NCBI GenBank assembly: GCA_015489955.1
Contig: WFYR01000048.1
Span: 1 to 53,519, forward strand
Source of the DNA: Mesoaciditoga sp.
GTDB taxonomy: Bacteria; Thermotogota; Thermotogae; Mesoaciditogales; Mesoaciditogaceae
DNA: 53,519 nt
Direction of reading: 5' to 3'
Each line of letters starts with the position of its first letter. The stretch's first letter is position 1. The notes below the pieces were generated by a model. The model was not told the DNA's origin, did not search any database, and saw only the letters and a list, made by a program, of their open reading frames with translations. Shown piece by piece: positions 26,443 through 35,144 of this stretch. The position numbers and the translations under genes are program-made.

Positions 26443-26958
26443 ATGAAAATATGTTCAACGTTTGAGAGTCCCATTGGAACGATGAAAATTTGTGAAGAAA
26501 ACGATAAAATATGTGAAATAAGATTTGTAAAAGATGGAGAAAATATAAGTGAAGATGTAAAAGGCGAAAATTCAGGAAAGTCAACAATTGAAAAGGTATT
26601 AAAAGAACTGAAGGAGTACTTTTACGCAGGGAGAACCACTTTTGATTTCTCAATTTCATTGCGTGGAAGTGATTTTGAGAAAAAAGTATGGAGGGCCGCT
26701 CTTTCAATACCCTTTGGAAAGGTGAAAACTTATTCCGATCTGGCCAAATTTATAGGTAGACCAATGGCTTACAGAGCGGTCGCAAATGCGTTGGGAAAGA
26801 ACAAACTTGTATTGGCTGTTCCGTGCCATCGTGTTGTGTCCAAAAGCGGAATTGGAGGTTTCAGTGCTGGATTGTGGAGAAAAGAATGGTTTTTGAAGCA
26901 TGAAGGCATTGAATTGACCACGTTAACGAAAAGTACAAAGGAGGAGAATTTAAGATGA
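26443..26958 (+). CDS. ogt: Methylated-DNA--protein-cysteine methyltransferase
   Basis: VPCHRVVSKSGIGGFSAGLWRKEWFLKHEG active-site motif. Confidence 0.94.
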   Translation: MKICSTFESPIGTMKICEENDKICEIRFVKDGENISEDVKGENSGKSTIEKVLKELKEYFYAGRTTFDFSISLRGSDFEKKVWRAALSIPFGKVKTYSDLAKFIGRPMAYRAVANALGKNKLVLAVPCHRVVSKSGIGGFSAGLWRKEWFLKHEGIELTTLTKSTKEENLR

Positions 26959-28148
26959 TCGTAAGACCTTTTAAGGCACTACGACCAGATTCAAAGTACG
27001 TTGAAAGGGTGCAATGCCCACCTTACGATGTTGTGACGAAAGAAGAGGCAAAGAAGTATGCTGAAGATCCATACTCCTTCATGAGTGTTATAAGACCAGA
27101 TGCTATAGCAAAGGAAGACGAAAATATCTACGAAGTCGCTGCCAGAGAATTAAAGAGACTGATAAAAGAAAAGGTGCTGATAAGAGATGAAAAGCCCATC
27201 TTTTACCTTTACTCTCAGACAATGGGACATCATACACAAACGGGTTTGGTGGCATGCGTTGCTGCGAAAGAGTATCCAGAAAAAATAAAAAGACATGAAC
27301 TTACCAGAGAGGATAAAGAAAAAGAACGAATAAAACATATATTGGCTACGCGGGCGAATACCGGCCAGGTTTTTTTGACTTTCAGAAGCGATGATAATTT
27401 GAAAAAAGCCATTAACGTTGAAAATGGACGGCTTCTTTACGAGGTTAAAAGCAAGAACCCGGATGTTGTTCACCGCATCTACGCTATAGAAAATGAAATC
27501 GATATCAAACGAATAGAAGATATTTTTGATGATGTACCAGCATTTTACATTGCCGATGGTCATCATCGTGCATCCGCTTCTGTTCAAGTTTCCAAAGAGT
27601 TTAATGGTGAGGGAGAATGGAATTACTTTATGGCAACGATATTTCCTCATGACGAGCTTCAACTGATGGGATATCACCGTGTGGTGAAAGATCTGAATGG
27701 AATGTCAGAAGAAGAATTTCTTAAAAGATTGAAGAAGGCGAATTTCGATGTTTGTGAAGTTAACAGCAGTGTGGTTGAGCCAAAAACCGTTCATCATTTT
27801 GGAATGTATCTTGATGGAAAGTGGTATGAATTGAAGGCGATTGACGTTAATGATAAAGATCCAATAAAAAAATTAGACGTTTCCATTCTGCAAGAAAGAG
27901 TTCTGAGCCCTATTCTTGGAATTGAGAATCCGAGAACCAATTCAAGAATAGATTTCGTGGGTGGAATACGTGGAATTCCTTACTTAAAATCTCTGGTAGA
28001 CAATGAGAATTACGTTGTTGCCTTTGCACTTTATCCGACTAGAATTGAAGATGTCATGGAAGTTGCAGATGCCAATCTCTTTATGCCACCAAAATCCACG
28101 TGGTTTGAGCCAAAGCTTCAAAGTGGTCTTTTAATACATACTTTTTGA
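26955..28148 (+). CDS. DUF1015 family protein
   Basis: PFKALRPDSKYVERVQCPPYDVVTKEEAKKYA and IADGHHRASAS typical of DUF1015. Confidence 0.86.
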   Translation: MIVRPFKALRPDSKYVERVQCPPYDVVTKEEAKKYAEDPYSFMSVIRPDAIAKEDENIYEVAARELKRLIKEKVLIRDEKPIFYLYSQTMGHHTQTGLVACVAAKEYPEKIKRHELTREDKEKERIKHILATRANTGQVFLTFRSDDNLKKAINVENGRLLYEVKSKNPDVVHRIYAIENEIDIKRIEDIFDDVPAFYIADGHHRASASVQVSKEFNGEGEWNYFMATIFPHDELQLMGYHRVVKDLNGMSEEEFLKRLKKANFDVCEVNSSVVEPKTVHHFGMYLDGKWYELKAIDVNDKDPIKKLDVSILQERVLSPILGIENPRTNSRIDFVGGIRGIPYLKSLVDNENYVVAFALYPTRIEDVMEVADANLFMPPKSTWFEPKLQSGLLIHTF

Positions 28149-28170: not shown

Positions 28171-28734
28171 CTGATAAAAGAGCTTACAAAGCGTCAGAAG
28201 GAAGTCTACGATTTTATAAAAAAATTCATCAAAGAAAATGGATATCCTCCAACCATAAGAGAGGTGTCTCATCATTTTGGATTTTCTTCTCCTTCGGGAG
28301 CTATCGCTCATATTGAAGCCCTTCAAAAAAAAGGATATATAAAGCGTGATCACGCTTCAAGAGGAATAAAGCTTGTAGCGGAACCACCTTTGGAAATAAG
28401 TGCGGCGCGTGTATTTGGGCATTTCGATGAAAATGGTTTAGTTCAAGAAAATAAGAAGTTGAAATTTATTCCCCTTCCAGATGAAAAAGATGATCTCATC
28501 GCTGTCGTGAGTAAAACTGACATTCCTGCGGTAAACATTTTAAAAAACGATTACGTCATATTTGAAATGAACACTGCAAAAGAGGGTCTGGCTATGGTAT
28601 CGATGGAAAGGAGAATTTTCGTTGGCTTTTTGAAAAAATCAAAATTCGAGAAGCTCTCAGGAGAAAAGCAAAAAGGGTTTAAAGTTCTTGGTTCCTTTTA
28701 TGGCATTTTGAGAATTCAAGAAAGGAGGAAATAA
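28171..28734 (+). CDS. lexA: LexA-family repressor, predicted non-cleavable; non-canonical start (CTG 28171 or ATA 28174)
   Basis: (L)IKELTKRQKEVYDFIKKFIKENGYPPTIREVSHHFGFSSPSGAIAHIEALQKKGYIKRD is a LexA wHTH; in-frame TAG at 28168 limits the start; SD GAGGTG at 28161-28166. Confidence 0.85.
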   Translation: MIKELTKRQKEVYDFIKKFIKENGYPPTIREVSHHFGFSSPSGAIAHIEALQKKGYIKRDHASRGIKLVAEPPLEISAARVFGHFDENGLVQENKKLKFIPLPDEKDDLIAVVSKTDIPAVNILKNDYVIFEMNTAKEGLAMVSMERRIFVGFLKKSKFEKLSGEKQKGFKVLGSFYGILRIQERRK

Positions 28735-28735
28735 C

Positions 28736-29203
28736 GTGAGTGAAATTAAAGTCGTAAGTTTTAAAATCGGAGGGGAAGAGTACGCGCTGGATATAATGAA
28801 AATAGACAGCATCATAGAAGTCAAAGATATTCTAAACGTTCCACAGGCTCCGTACTTTGTCAAAGGGATAATGGATTTTAGAGGAACGGTCATCCCCGTT
28901 TTAAGCGGTAAAAAGAAGTTTGTTTCTCCAAATGAGGAAGATGAGAGCAACAAAGCAATAGTGGTAAACATAAAAGATAAGAAAATGGCCATTCTTGTGG
29001 ATGAGGTAAAAGAGGTTTTGACCTTTTCACAAAACGTTCTGGAGGAGCCGCCAGAAGAGATCACAAATGAGTCTAACAAATATATAAGCGCTATAGCAAA
29101 TGTTAAAGGCAGAATGATAATGGTCTTGGATATAGACAGGCTTCTCAGTAAAAAAGAAGAAGAGAAAATTTCGAATTTAAGCGCACAAAGTGAAACTAAA
29201 TAA
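28736..29203 (+). CDS. CheW-like domain protein
   Basis: VSFKIGGEEYALDIMKIDSIIEV, GIMDFRGTVIPVL, AILVDEVKEVL; GTG start with GGAGG SD. Confidence 0.9.
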   Translation: MSEIKVVSFKIGGEEYALDIMKIDSIIEVKDILNVPQAPYFVKGIMDFRGTVIPVLSGKKKFVSPNEEDESNKAIVVNIKDKKMAILVDEVKEVLTFSQNVLEEPPEEITNESNKYISAIANVKGRMIMVLDIDRLLSKKEEEKISNLSAQSETK

Positions 29204-29232: not shown

Positions 29233-29265
29233 GTGGAAAAATTGAAACCGTGTGAAATTCGTTGA
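29233..29265 (+). CDS. Putative leader mini-ORF (VEKLKPCEIR) coupled to the purH-like gene
   Basis: GGGAGG SD 7 nt before GTG 29233; its TGA overlaps the TTG start of the next gene (TTGA). Confidence 0.35.
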   Translation: MEKLKPCEIR

Positions 29266-30581
29266 ACATAAATACCGCTTTTTTGGAAAGAAAAGACGGA
29301 GACTTTGAATGGCTCGGCAAAAAGCTTATCCAATTCGGAATAAAAACGGTAAGTGTGGAAGACTTCAACGATCTTTTTGATTTGAACAGCGAAATTTTAA
29401 AAGCCGGAGGTGCTGATTTTAAAGGGATTGATCTTGTCGCCATAGATTTAGGCGAAAATCCGACAAAGCTGAATGAAGAACGCATACTTTCAGACATCGA
29501 GCCATGGAAATATGCCGTTATTTATTCGGCAGTGAAAAATTACCGTAATTCTATTGTGTTAGTGGATAGTGACGATTTTGAAAGGGTTATAGAGTCCATA
29601 GATGAGTGCGGAGATGTAACTCTTCAAGACAGAAGAATGTTGTCTTTGAAGGCCATGTACCGTCTTTTAAGAATAAATTCTCTTACCCATAAGGAATTAA
29701 GTGAAGTCTTCGCCGCGGAGAAATTTGAGACCGTCATATTAGAAGAAATCGTTCCATTAAGGTACGGTGAAAATCCACACCAGTACGCGCACATTTCAAA
29801 AATAGCCAAAGAGAAAGCCTTTTTTGATTTCTTGGACGAAGATCAACTTCTTGGAATGAGCTACAACAATTTGATAGATCTTCATCTGGCTTTAAGTGTT
29901 TTGAAAAATCTTAGGGCTCCATTTGTGGTTAGGGTTCACCATGGAAGTGTGGTTGATGTTGTTAACAAAAACTTCAATTTCTCAAAGGTTCGTGGGGTAT
30001 TGGCAACCAATTTTGTTAACGAGAAACTTGTAACTTCATTAAAAGAGAATGATTTGGATGTTCTTGCTGTACCCGAAGGAAGCGATGTAAAAGTGAAAGC
30101 TAAGAGAGTAGTTAAATTCAACGAAGAGTTTCTCTCATTTTCCAAGAGAGAATACAGGTTTTTAGATGGAAATTTTTTGGTTCAAACTTCCGACGATCTC
30201 GAAGAAATGAGATTTTCTTCTGACAACGACGATCCGCAGTACCGATGGGCTAGCGTTATCGCTTCTTTGTCTAATTCAATGGCATGTTGCATTTTCAAAG
30301 AAGGTGAAATGATATCATTGGGAAGCGGTCAACCGGATCAAATAGACGCCTTGGAAATAGCTTTGCTGCGCGCTAAAAGACACTCAAAAGACGTTCAAAA
30401 TGCGATCTTTGCTTTTGATGGGCCCATAAAAGACGAAAAAGTTTTGAAAAGGCTTGAAGAAGTGGGAAGTGGTACCGTGATACAGCCGGGAGGCTCGAAA
30501 ATGGACACGCTGGTTAAAGAGAGGTTGGAAAACGCTAATATAAAATTGATCTTTACAGGTAAAAGGAGATTCAAACATTGA
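29262..30581 (+). CDS. PurH-like protein (AICARFT/IMPCHase fold), divergent and probably not a normal PurH
   Basis: RYGENPHQYAHI, MSYNNLIDLHLAL, SLSNSMACCIFKEGEMISLGSGQPDQIDA, GTVIQPGGSKMD and FTGKRRFKH match PurH; catalytic motifs are missing (see findings). Confidence 0.78.
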   Translation: MNINTAFLERKDGDFEWLGKKLIQFGIKTVSVEDFNDLFDLNSEILKAGGADFKGIDLVAIDLGENPTKLNEERILSDIEPWKYAVIYSAVKNYRNSIVLVDSDDFERVIESIDECGDVTLQDRRMLSLKAMYRLLRINSLTHKELSEVFAAEKFETVILEEIVPLRYGENPHQYAHISKIAKEKAFFDFLDEDQLLGMSYNNLIDLHLALSVLKNLRAPFVVRVHHGSVVDVVNKNFNFSKVRGVLATNFVNEKLVTSLKENDLDVLAVPEGSDVKVKAKRVVKFNEEFLSFSKREYRFLDGNFLVQTSDDLEEMRFSSDNDDPQYRWASVIASLSNSMACCIFKEGEMISLGSGQPDQIDALEIALLRAKRHSKDVQNAIFAFDGPIKDEKVLKRLEEVGSGTVIQPGGSKMDTLVKERLENANIKLIFTGKRRFKH

Positions 30582-31588
30582 AAAGGATCGGCATAGTCGG
30601 ACTTGGAACGGTTGGTGGGGGCTTCTACGAACTTGCCAAAGAAAGAAGAGAATTTGTCATTCACAAAGTATTAAATCGTTCTGAGTCGAAATATCTCGTT
30701 CACAATGTAAAAAGTCAGGCGATTGCTAAAAATATCCAAGATTTGATAGAGGAAGTTGATATCGTTGTTGAAACTGTTGGTGGGACAGACTTTGCTTATA
30801 AACTTATTAAAGAGGCTTTGAAAAAAGGAAAGAACGTGGTTACTGCCAATAAGGCTCTTATCGCATCGAAGGGCGTAGAGATTATGAGATTGGCCGAAAA
30901 AAACAACGCAAAAGTGATGTTCGGTGCAAGTGTAGGCGGTGGAATGCCGGCGTTGAGAAATTTGAAGTACCATTCTTACGGAAAAATAAAAAAGTTATAT
31001 GGCATCCTGAACGCCACTTCCAATTTCATTTTATCGAAGATGGTCAATGGAATGCCTATGGAAGAAGCCGTAAAGATTGCCCAAGAAAAAGGATATGCCG
31101 AACAGGATCCAAGCGATGATATCAACGGTTTAGATGCCGCGCGCAAAGCTTCCATAATGTGCGGTTTAGTTAGCAAAAGAATTCCGAAACTTGAATCTTT
31201 TACAATAGAACCCATAACAAATGTGAATGTGAAAAAGCTCGAATATGCAAAAAAACTAAAGAGCGTTGTAAAGCCGATAATTTACATCTCATTTGAAGAA
31301 AAAATCAAGATGTTTGTCGGTCCCGTTGCCATTCCAAAGTACTCCCGCATCGCAAGGGTAGATAAAACTGAGAATTGCTTGGTGATAGAAGGAGAAAGTG
31401 GCATTAATTTTTTGAGCGGTGTTGGAGCAGGACAGAATCCAACCGCTTTTGCTGTAATGGCAGACGTTCTTTCAATAATAAACGATGAAAATATGAACGT
31501 TGATTTTGAAAGCTACATAGATTCAAGAATTGGTGAACCTGATTTGGACACTTTTGAAGGATTGAAAATATTCAGACCTTCTATTTGA
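30578..31588 (+). CDS. hom: Homoserine dehydrogenase (no ACT domain)
   Basis: GIVGLGTVGGGFYEL, NVVTANKALIA, LYGILNATSNFILSKM, DPSDDINGLDAARKASIM; TTGA overlap with the previous gene. Confidence 0.9.
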   Translation: MKRIGIVGLGTVGGGFYELAKERREFVIHKVLNRSESKYLVHNVKSQAIAKNIQDLIEEVDIVVETVGGTDFAYKLIKEALKKGKNVVTANKALIASKGVEIMRLAEKNNAKVMFGASVGGGMPALRNLKYHSYGKIKKLYGILNATSNFILSKMVNGMPMEEAVKIAQEKGYAEQDPSDDINGLDAARKASIMCGLVSKRIPKLESFTIEPITNVNVKKLEYAKKLKSVVKPIIYISFEEKIKMFVGPVAIPKYSRIARVDKTENCLVIEGESGINFLSGVGAGQNPTAFAVMADVLSIINDENMNVDFESYIDSRIGEPDLDTFEGLKIFRPSI

Positions 31589-32808: not shown

Positions 32809-33330
32809 ATGATGAACGTATCAAAATTGGGATTTGAAAATCCTATTTTACACTACAAATTGGATCCGGGAGAAATGGGAGTTGCGTCTCCTTCCTCTGC
32901 CATGTTAAGCATCAGTAGAGTAGCTGGTCACGAGACGGGAAACGCGGTTAGAATGTGGGCGGAAGCCATCGCGAATGGTGGTTACGTGATATATTCAGCC
33001 ATAACGCTGGATATGAGAAAGAGGGGAGCTTTTCTGGCGGCGGTGGCTGGAAAGACGACGGTGGAAGTTTACTATCCGCATGGAAAAAGAGGAGAAAGCT
33101 ATATCAATGGCAAAAAGAAAACAAGTGATTTTTTTCCAATCCGAAATGTGGAAATGAAATTAAAGACGGCGTTAAACACTTTGAGGAATTTGCTTAAAAA
33201 CACGACGGATCCCGCAGAGAGAGAAAGAATCAAAAGAAAGATCTCTCAAATTGAGAAAGCCATTAACATGTTAAGAATGGGAAATATACCCATTCATAAT
33301 ATGGAAAGTTTGGTGAATGTCTATGCGTAA
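32809..33330 (+). CDS. Conserved-looking protein of unknown function; tentative resemblance to the SprA-related / putative metalloprotease family
   Basis: Complete 173-aa ORF; VAGHETGNAVRMWAEAIANGGYVIYSAITLDM...AAVAGKTTVEVYYP resembles the layout of that family without a complete HExxH. Confidence 0.6.
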   Translation: MMNVSKLGFENPILHYKLDPGEMGVASPSSAMLSISRVAGHETGNAVRMWAEAIANGGYVIYSAITLDMRKRGAFLAAVAGKTTVEVYYPHGKRGESYINGKKKTSDFFPIRNVEMKLKTALNTLRNLLKNTTDPAERERIKRKISQIEKAINMLRMGNIPIHNMESLVNVYA

Positions 33331-33859
33331 AGCACTTATGGTTGTGGACATGCAAAATGATTTTGTCACTAAAAATGGGGCGCTTTATTTTGAAAAAGCC
33401 GAAAGTGTAAAACCAGTTGTTTTAGATTGCGTTAAAAAATACATAGAAAACAACGCCCCAATTATCTTTACTCAAGACTGGCACGATGAGGACGATAAAG
33501 AATTTAATATTTTTCCAAAGCATTGTATTAAAGATACTTGGGGAGCTCAGTTGTTTGATAGCTTAAAGAAAGTAGCGGAAGGATACGATAACGCTTTTTT
33601 TGTGAAAAAGAGAAAGTATTCCGCTTTTTACCAAACTAACTTGGATGAAAAGTTAAAGACACTCTCTCCAAAAACTGTTGAAGTCTGTGGGGTAACCACA
33701 AATATTTGTGTGCTTTTCAACGTTGAGGAGTTGAGAAATAGAGATTTTGAAGTAATCGTGTATGAAAATGCTGTAGCTTCTTACGACGATAATTTACATG
33801 ATTTTGCAATTCAACAAATAAAAGACGTGCTTGGAGCCAAAATATGTACATGGAGGTGA
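33317..33859 (+). CDS. Nicotinamidase-like cysteine hydrolase (isochorismatase family)
   Basis: MVVDMQNDFV (Asp), VKKRKYSAFYQT (Lys), VCGVTTNICVLF (Cys); adjacent to nicotinate phosphoribosyltransferase. Confidence 0.9.
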   Translation: MSMRKALMVVDMQNDFVTKNGALYFEKAESVKPVVLDCVKKYIENNAPIIFTQDWHDEDDKEFNIFPKHCIKDTWGAQLFDSLKKVAEGYDNAFFVKKRKYSAFYQTNLDEKLKTLSPKTVEVCGVTTNICVLFNVEELRNRDFEVIVYENAVASYDDNLHDFAIQQIKDVLGAKICTWR

Positions 33860-33863
33860 GCTT

Positions 33864-35144
33864 GTGAGAGCTCAAAGGCTTGATCCGAGAGTTTTCAAAG
33901 TACCCATTGATAGGATAAGAGCGGGTTATTACTCGGATAAATACTTTACAAGATACGTGGAAGTTTTGAAGAAAGATGATCACCATCCAAAGGTGCTTTA
34001 TCAATTTTTTCCAAGAAGAGACGCCGTAATCGTTGGTATAGATGAAGCTCTGGCAATATTGAAAATGTGCACAGGTTATTATAAAGACGAAGAAAAAGCC
34101 GATTCTCTTTTCAAAGAATTACTTAAAGCGGAACGTGAATTGCAAGATGCTGTTTACGTCATGGACAGAAAAGAAATTGAAAAAGCGAACCGCAAAAGGT
34201 GGGATTTGCGTGAATCTCTTAACAACTTGTGGGTGGACAAATTTTCTGAGATAGAAGTTAAAGCCCTTTACGATGGCGAAGAGGCAAAAAATATGGAAGC
34301 CATAATGACAATCGAAGGAGATCCAACTTATTTCGGATACTTGGAAACCGTGTTGCTTGGAGTAATAGCAAGAGGTAGTTCCACCGCAACAGCTGTCAAG
34401 AAAGTTGCGAAAGTTGCAAATGGAAAACCCATTTTATTTTTCTCCGCGCGCTTTGATCACTATTGGGTTCAGGCGACAGATGGTTACGCCGCTTTTAAAT
34501 CTGGAGCAGATGTCGTTTCAACAGATGCAAATGCCGATTATTGGGGAGCTGAAGCGACCGGAACAGTTCCTCATGCACTAATAGCGGCTTATGATGGATC
34601 CACTTCGAAAGCTGCCATAAAATTCGATCAATACATTCCATCTCATGTTAACAGGATCATTCTTGTCGATTGGGAAAACGATGTCATAGGTACAACGAAG
34701 AAGATGCTTCAGAGCTTTTACGAATACGTCACCGGTGAAAAGTACAGAGAAGGTTCTCCTCTACAAAAAATAATAGGTCCCGGAAAGAACAAGATATGGG
34801 GAGTAAGATTTGATACTTCCGGTACGTTAAGAGATGTGTCAGTTACTCCTATCGGAGAGATGTCTCTGGGGGTTTGCCCTGAGCTTGTCTGGAAAGCGAG
34901 AAAGGAATTTGATTCTATGGGTTTGGAAAACCTTAAAATAATAGTTTCCGGTGGATTCAATGCCGATAAGATAGCGCTTTTTGAAAAGTTAAAAGTTCCG
35001 GTGGACGCGTACGGAGTGGGATCTTCACTTCTTAAGGAAAAAGTAGATATCACGGCAGATATAGTTGAAGTGAATGGAAAGCCTTGTGCGAAGGTGGGGA
35101 GGAAAAAAGCGGATCTTTCACGATTGGAAAAAGTCGAATATTGA
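33864..35144 (+). CDS. Nicotinate phosphoribosyltransferase
   Basis: ARFDHYWVQATDGYAAFKSGADVVSTDANADYWGAEATGTVPHALIAAY, GVRFDTSGTLRDVS; SD GGAGGTGA before GTG 33864. Confidence 0.9.
   Translation: MRAQRLDPRVFKVPIDRIRAGYYSDKYFTRYVEVLKKDDHHPKVLYQFFPRRDAVIVGIDEALAILKMCTGYYKDEEKADSLFKELLKAERELQDAVYVMDRKEIEKANRKRWDLRESLNNLWVDKFSEIEVKALYDGEEAKNMEAIMTIEGDPTYFGYLETVLLGVIARGSSTATAVKKVAKVANGKPILFFSARFDHYWVQATDGYAAFKSGADVVSTDANADYWGAEATGTVPHALIAAYDGSTSKAAIKFDQYIPSHVNRIILVDWENDVIGTTKKMLQSFYEYVTGEKYREGSPLQKIIGPGKNKIWGVRFDTSGTLRDVSVTPIGEMSLGVCPELVWKARKEFDSMGLENLKIIVSGGFNADKIALFEKLKVPVDAYGVGSSLLKEKVDITADIVEVNGKPCAKVGRKKADLSRLEKVEY

Follow-up and report, generated by a model that had tools for sequence, protein, structure and literature searches.

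The gene examined here raises a simple question: what is the role of a protein that keeps the scaffold of PurH, with its AICARFT and IMP cyclohydrolase (IMPCH) activities, and appears to have lost most of the residues on which both depend? It lies in a stretch of 53,519 nucleotides from Mesoaciditoga sp. (contig WFYR01000048.1, assembly GCA_015489955.1), hereafter the window, at positions 29262..30581 of the forward strand, on which hom and the three genes described upstream of it also lie, and it encodes 439 amino acids from a TTG start (N-terminus MNINTAF...). A sequence-only reading of this DNA had placed the frame, with exact coordinates, between cheW and the homoserine dehydrogenase gene hom, and had taken its product for a PurH-derived pseudoenzyme or repurposed protein. 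Both points hold, the second being supported by an intact second PurH in relatives and by persistence of the gene where pathway markers are gone, but membership of the protein in a phylum-wide paralogue with a signature of its own had been missed.

Homology to PurH and state of the catalytic sites

The window protein scores 99.1 bits against Pfam PF01808 (E 4.5e-28; cut-off 25) and matches the PurH structure 4ehi with an E value of 6e-29 in phmmer, a homology over PurH length which, judged from these scores, is far beyond chance; a profile built from the paralogue aligns to residues 23-532 of 4ehi, that is, nearly end to end. Both PurH equivalog models place it below their cut-offs, with 142 bits against 402 for NF002049 and 116 against 528 for TIGR00355, although the canonical PurH of a genome of the same genus (G001), which passes NF002049 at 461 bits, itself reaches only 372 on TIGR00355. 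The MGS/IMPCH domain PF02142, present in the canonical PurH of a sister species, was undetected by Pfam in the window protein, and the Thermotoga-type paralogue is so eroded that it scores below the Pfam cut-off for the PurH family. Structure prediction of the paralogue from three sequences gave a mean pLDDT of 41.

The scaffold motifs that had been listed earlier are all present: R167-Y168-G-E-N-P-H-Q174 (29760..29783), which includes the AICAR-contacting Arg-Tyr of AICARFT, S200-Y-N-N, PGGS and FTGKRRFKH. RYGENPHQ, SYNN, PGGS and the RxFKH tail are shared with bifunctional PurH (PF01808 + PF02142; NF002049, TIGR00355; 4ehi, 3zzm, 1zcz, 1g8m, 1p4r), and the C-terminal His of PurH is also kept. 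Alignment to PurH likewise agrees with the earlier reading that the STGGT loop and the GRVKTLHP segment are absent and that SDAFFPF is replaced by FAFDGPI. The claim made for VKHxxPCG stands, with one refinement: the catalytic Lys is indeed gone from the Lys-His pair, but the segment aligns as VHHGS, and the catalytic His of the pair is retained in H226-H227 (29937..29942). Both His residues are invariant in the ten members of the family (f1), as is Q360 (30339..30341), which replaces the AICARFT Arg of GQxxR; the pocket residues R167, Y168, N202 and H227 are invariant in f1 as well, with new H226, Q360 and P388 alongside. The key residues of IMPCH are K66, Y104, D125 and K137 (PMC3261824), and one of these four remains in the window protein, K137 as K92 (29535..29537), the K66 segment being deleted, Y104 lost and D125 replaced by E80. 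As aligned, the window protein has thus lost most of the catalytic residues for each of the two PurH activities.

Distribution, origin and selection of the paralogue

In order to delimit the group to which this protein belongs, we ran a profile of the divergent proteins over 104 Thermotogota genomes and sorted the hits by motif, which placed the paralogue in 89 genomes, in one copy each. It is missing from one f7 genus (7 genomes), from f5, from genus g31 of f9 as well as from a small number of further genomes, some of them incomplete; because of its absence from the first three, it is dispensable in some lineages. Families f10 and f9 we take to be Thermosipho/Fervidobacterium-type and Mesotoga/Kosmotoga-type, respectively. 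In a tree of 90 sequences covering the N-terminal half and linker, obtained by a quick search with long branches and no bootstrap, all 61 of the 61 sampled paralogues, with the window protein on their side, were separated by a branch with SH-aLRT 86 from the canonical PurH of Thermotogota and cyanobacteria. A single origin is likely rather than proven, since the tree was quick and its branches are long. A literature search for TM1583, presumably the T. maritima locus of the paralogue, and for any paralogue of PurH in Thermotoga returned nothing relevant, an absence which is no proof of novelty.

The reading frame is open in all family members, with dN/dS values of 0.03-0.08 that are lower than those of hom wherever both could be computed. 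Two pairs from genus g2 gave 0.061 and 0.027, with DUF1015 and lexA both higher in those pairs. By these ratios the paralogue is under strong purifying selection, including in genomes without the purine pathway.

A survey of 118 Cyanobacteriota genomes found none with a second copy of PurH that scored comparably. Cyanobacteriota of 1.8-2.0 Mb (G104, G107, G110, G116, G119, G122; loci L126-L130 and L116) carry an independent degenerate PurH in genomes without PurC. In L126-L129, Lys66 is replaced by D, N or E, Tyr104 by C, the Lys of the Lys-His pair by R and the Arg of GQxxR by A, while L116 is a lone AICARFT-like protein with INHG.

A short element common to all copies

The paralogue signature, CGDv-L--RR, reads C116-G-D-V-T-L-Q-D-R-R125 in the window protein (29607..29636), in agreement with the pattern CGD[VIF]xLxxRR of the Thermotogota paralogue. 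Its residues G117, D118, R124 and R125 are the only four invariant positions among the compared columns, being found in 89/89 paralogues, although these copies were detected by profiles built from members bearing the element, so that any copy lacking it might have escaped detection. Position 116 holds Cys in 84% of the 89. The corresponding columns of canonical PurH have Asp at 118 in 4%, Cys at 116 in 0% and Arg at 125 in 15% of cases, and none of the four invariant residues is a known catalytic residue. Furthermore, K92, N93, K130 and F150 are each kept in more than 90% of the 89 paralogues and R95 in 84%; Asn at position 2 of the N-terminus is kept in 94% of 78. The two cyanobacterial degenerate copies that were checked are without the CGD-RR element.

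The element lies within a conserved core, residues 57-160 (29430..29741), which comprises the second half of the IMPCH-like domain and the linker. This is the part present in every paralogue, and it showed the highest identity and the lowest dN of four stretches in 5/5 family pairs compared.

Graded loss of PurH chemistry across families

The AICARFT site has been lost in all paralogue lineages, and the IMPCH residues are lost to different degrees. The tetrad K66-Y104-D125-K137 is intact (K-Y-D-K) in genera g15, g17, g20 and g36 of f10 and g24, g29, g32 and g33 of f7, including five f7 genomes that also have a full PurH. Change at the Tyr gives K-S-D-K in f10 g21, K-P-D-K in f7 g16, g18 and g19, K-R-D-K in f2 and f6, K-C-D-K in f3 g11 and K-K-D-K in f9 g28; in most lineages with a full PurH, Y104 has become R, P or C. 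Genus g21, where PurC and AICARFT were not found, has kept the paralogue with its catalytic Tyr replaced by Ser. At least two of the four residues are changed in f1, f3 g6, f4, f8, f11 and the remaining f9. Entire regions are also gone: the paralogue is only about 200 amino acids long in f2, f6 and parts of f10, where the C-terminal domain is missing, and in f1, f4 and f8 the first domain has lost its substrate loops.

In f10, as read in five genomes, the PurH gene encodes an AICARFT-only protein of about 300 amino acids in which KHQTPCG is intact, the exception being G039, which has a full PurH instead and a paralogue with intact tetrad. Because PurH is usually AICARFT-only in this family, the paralogue must, as far as these residues predict activity, supply the cyclohydrolase there, as the sole IMP cyclohydrolase wherever PurH is so reduced. 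The split PurH of f10 (L174-L178 with L062, L066, L067, L068, L168 and L169) is a bacterial case of a split seen in archaea, where the standalone IMP cyclohydrolase domain is PurH2 (PMC3261824). In a division of labour similar to that of PurH2, the f10 paralogue, down to about 200 amino acids, has all of K66/Y104/D125/K137 while its partner is an AICARFT-only protein, and those of g17 combine the KYDK tetrad with the lack of an AICARFT domain in 199-204 amino acids. The window protein, unlike PurH2, is left with one of the four key residues and has retained an AICARFT-like C-terminal domain.

Canonical PurH and the purine pathway

A search for a second, canonical purH turned up a distinct PurH, its catalytic motifs complete, in G001 and in three other genomes of f1, G003, G004 and G008, split over contig ends in the last two. 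The G001 orthologue of the window protein is 76% identical to it. The G001 assembly is 99% complete and carries both the paralogue and the intact PurH, the latter clustered with PurC- and PurM/PurL-type genes. In the window's own genome the present gene was the only PurH-like gene found, in an assembly of 120 contigs that is 88% complete and is also without the other purine pathway genes tested; it would be unsafe to conclude that this organism has no canonical purH, given that the pur genes form one cluster in G001 and could all lie on one missing contig.

As to INDEPENDENCE from the purine pathway, presence of the paralogue does not track the pathway, since it occurs in 28 of the 34 genomes without PurC and in 61 of the 70 with PurC, PurC absence being an imperfect marker, as G003 lacks PurC yet has PurM/PurL-type genes and PurH. 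When the comparison was restricted to genomes at least 90% complete, the paralogue was present in 21 of 25 without PurC. Genus g2, a sister genus within f1, goes furthest: canonical PurH, PurC and IGPD are absent from all four of its genomes (83-96% complete), which leaves AICAR and FAICAR without an apparent source there, and AIRS_C is absent from the two that were tested. The histidine marker IGPD was not found in any of the ten f1 genomes, and on that ground we rejected, for this family, a role in handling the AICAR that histidine synthesis leaves behind.

Gene neighbourhoods

Upstream of the gene, the window holds a DUF1015 gene (26955..28148), a gene for a LexA-like winged-helix protein (28264..28734) and cheW (28736..29203), and this order is kept in f1, except that cheW is missing in G002 and G005 and the lexA-like gene was not called in G003. 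The LexA-like frame is open 5' of its first standard start codon at 28264, and its true start is probably upstream, near 28171, at a non-standard codon. The protein (28171-28734) keeps the DNA-binding winged-helix half, while its C-terminal half, examined by eye, is without the GDSM serine (it reads SKTDIPAVNILKNDYV), as also appears from its family relatives; it scores 30 bits against a LexA cut-off of 111 and may be a non-cleavable LexA derivative.

Downstream, hom (30578..31588) starts with the TTG of a TTGA overlap with the stop of the paralogue gene (30578..30581). The link between the two genes that had been proposed from this overlap is upheld within genera g1, g3 and g4, where 6/6 genomes, all with adjoining hom, share the overlap, but fails beyond them: hom does not adjoin the paralogue in the four g2 genomes or in any other family examined, and the link is confined to f1. 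Further along the window, three consecutive genes at 32809-35144 are likely an NAD salvage operon; they encode a small protein of unknown family, a hydrolase of the isochorismatase type and a protein resembling nicotinate phosphoribosyltransferase.

We looked for a common neighbourhood theme across families and found none that was general and no partner gene that was shared. In four families, chemotaxis or motility genes are found no more than two genes away from the paralogue, namely cheW in f1, an MCP gene two genes downstream in f2, an MCP gene upstream in one f10 genome and fliM-fliY in f8, which could be chance (L082, L104, L109, L100 and window 28736-29203). Glutamine synthetase adjoins the paralogue divergently in f9 and on the same strand in two f7 genomes (G048, G060), a possible functional link (L091, L087, L088, L095, L098, L102). 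The other neighbours are a xanthine/uracil permease in f2, comF-type PRTases in f2 and f11, SAH hydrolase and pheS in f3, a tRNA-synthetase-like protein and glycosyltransferases in f7 and VIT1 in part of f10. Because neighbours differ between families, gene context yields no clear function.

Discussion

Our preferred reading, to which we assign a probability of roughly 0.6, is that the window gene encodes an ancient, subfunctionalised PurH paralogue whose retained role would be other than that of PurH, most likely that of a non-catalytic regulator binding a nucleotide or a partner. With equal confidence, we would describe a hitherto unrecognised Thermotogota family, born by PurH duplication and present in about 85% of species including purine-less ones, whose function is set by the CGD-RR element independently of both PurH reactions, IMP cyclohydrolase being a second job in f10. 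Soon after the duplication, the copy would have acquired, or retained, a function that has no part in de novo purine synthesis and depends on the central element; both PurH activities would since have gone in the lineage of the window, with this non-PurH function as the sole remainder. Less certainly, its working mode may be that of a binding protein, in which a nucleotide-type ligand would sit in the remodelled PurH pockets (Arg-Tyr-Asn-His kept, Lys changed to His, Arg to Gln) and control contact between a putative CGD/RR face and a partner protein. A non-catalytic regulator is the most economical proposal because neither ancestral active site would fit into the small part that all copies share.

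A serious rival that fits the same data, possible although we think it unlikely, is a new enzyme, in which the scaffold would have been rebuilt to catalyse a different reaction, one conceivable substrate being an imidazole or purine ribotide, and CGD-RR and the kept K92/N93/R95 would belong to the new active site. The charged invariant residues D118, R124 and R125, with K92 and K130 nearly so, resemble a site rather than packing, and the changes at 226, 360 and 388 in the f1 pocket look coordinated with the residues that are kept there. Repurposed PurH-type domains also exist: the paralogue profile matches ForH (6nko; 216 aa), which is PurH-type by its depositors' naming, at E 1.3e-26, through general IMPCH homology only. 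ForH presumably belongs to formycin biosynthesis and sets a precedent for such a domain outside purine synthesis. However, since the C-terminal domain or the substrate loops are missing in several families, no complete ancestral pocket is found in all members, and the central element alone is common to them. That the protein is still a PurH, acting as AICARFT, IMPCH or both through unusual active sites, is a reading we consider very improbable. In its favour, the window protein still has the Arg-Tyr and the Asn together with one His and the C-terminal His, and a cyclohydrolase is predicted in f10, but K66, Y104, D125, both substrate loops, the Lys of the Lys-His pair and the Arg of GQxxR are gone from the window protein, genomes without PurC and IGPD keep the gene with no apparent source of AICAR, and relatives with the pathway also own a complete canonical PurH. 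The paralogue differs from PurH, besides, in its equivalog scores, its own CGDv-L--RR element and its failure to track the pathway.

PurH is a dimer, and a regulatory subunit pairing with canonical PurH is conceivable, on the model of the inactive AdoMet decarboxylase paralogues of trypanosomes; dead paralogues that activate an active partner are known (PMC5201418), as are catalytically dead paralogues, such as prozyme, that are kept under selection (PMC5201418; reviewed in PMC5106787). The two proteins coexist in G001, G003, G004 and G008, and the Thermotogota paralogue resembles prozyme in looking inactive while being under selection. Unlike prozyme, it is also kept where the active partner is gone, namely in g2 and most f9 genomes, and is thus not simply a PurH activator, and one f7 genus has PurH without the paralogue. 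As a general role, partnership with PurH was refuted by the g2 genomes, where co-occurrence breaks down, and we rate this explanation as improbable. A decaying pseudogene, or a duplicate in the course of being lost, is scarcely credible: loss of motifs is graded across lineages, as such a course would have it, but the frame stays open in all family members at the low dN/dS given above, and retention in 89 of 104 genomes with an invariant private motif is hard to square with decay.

The paralogue also has a practical side. Annotation pipelines can label the paralogue purH, by which purine synthesis would be wrongly credited to species without markers of the pathway. The paralogue family is, moreover, a rare case in which one ancient duplicate is visible at every stage while one short element stays unchanged: one family shows a full division of labour between AICARFT and cyclohydrolase, purine-less species have lost a single catalytic Tyr, and elsewhere both sites are gone altogether. 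The fate of an enzyme-derived protein after the loss of its chemistry thereby becomes directly testable in this family.
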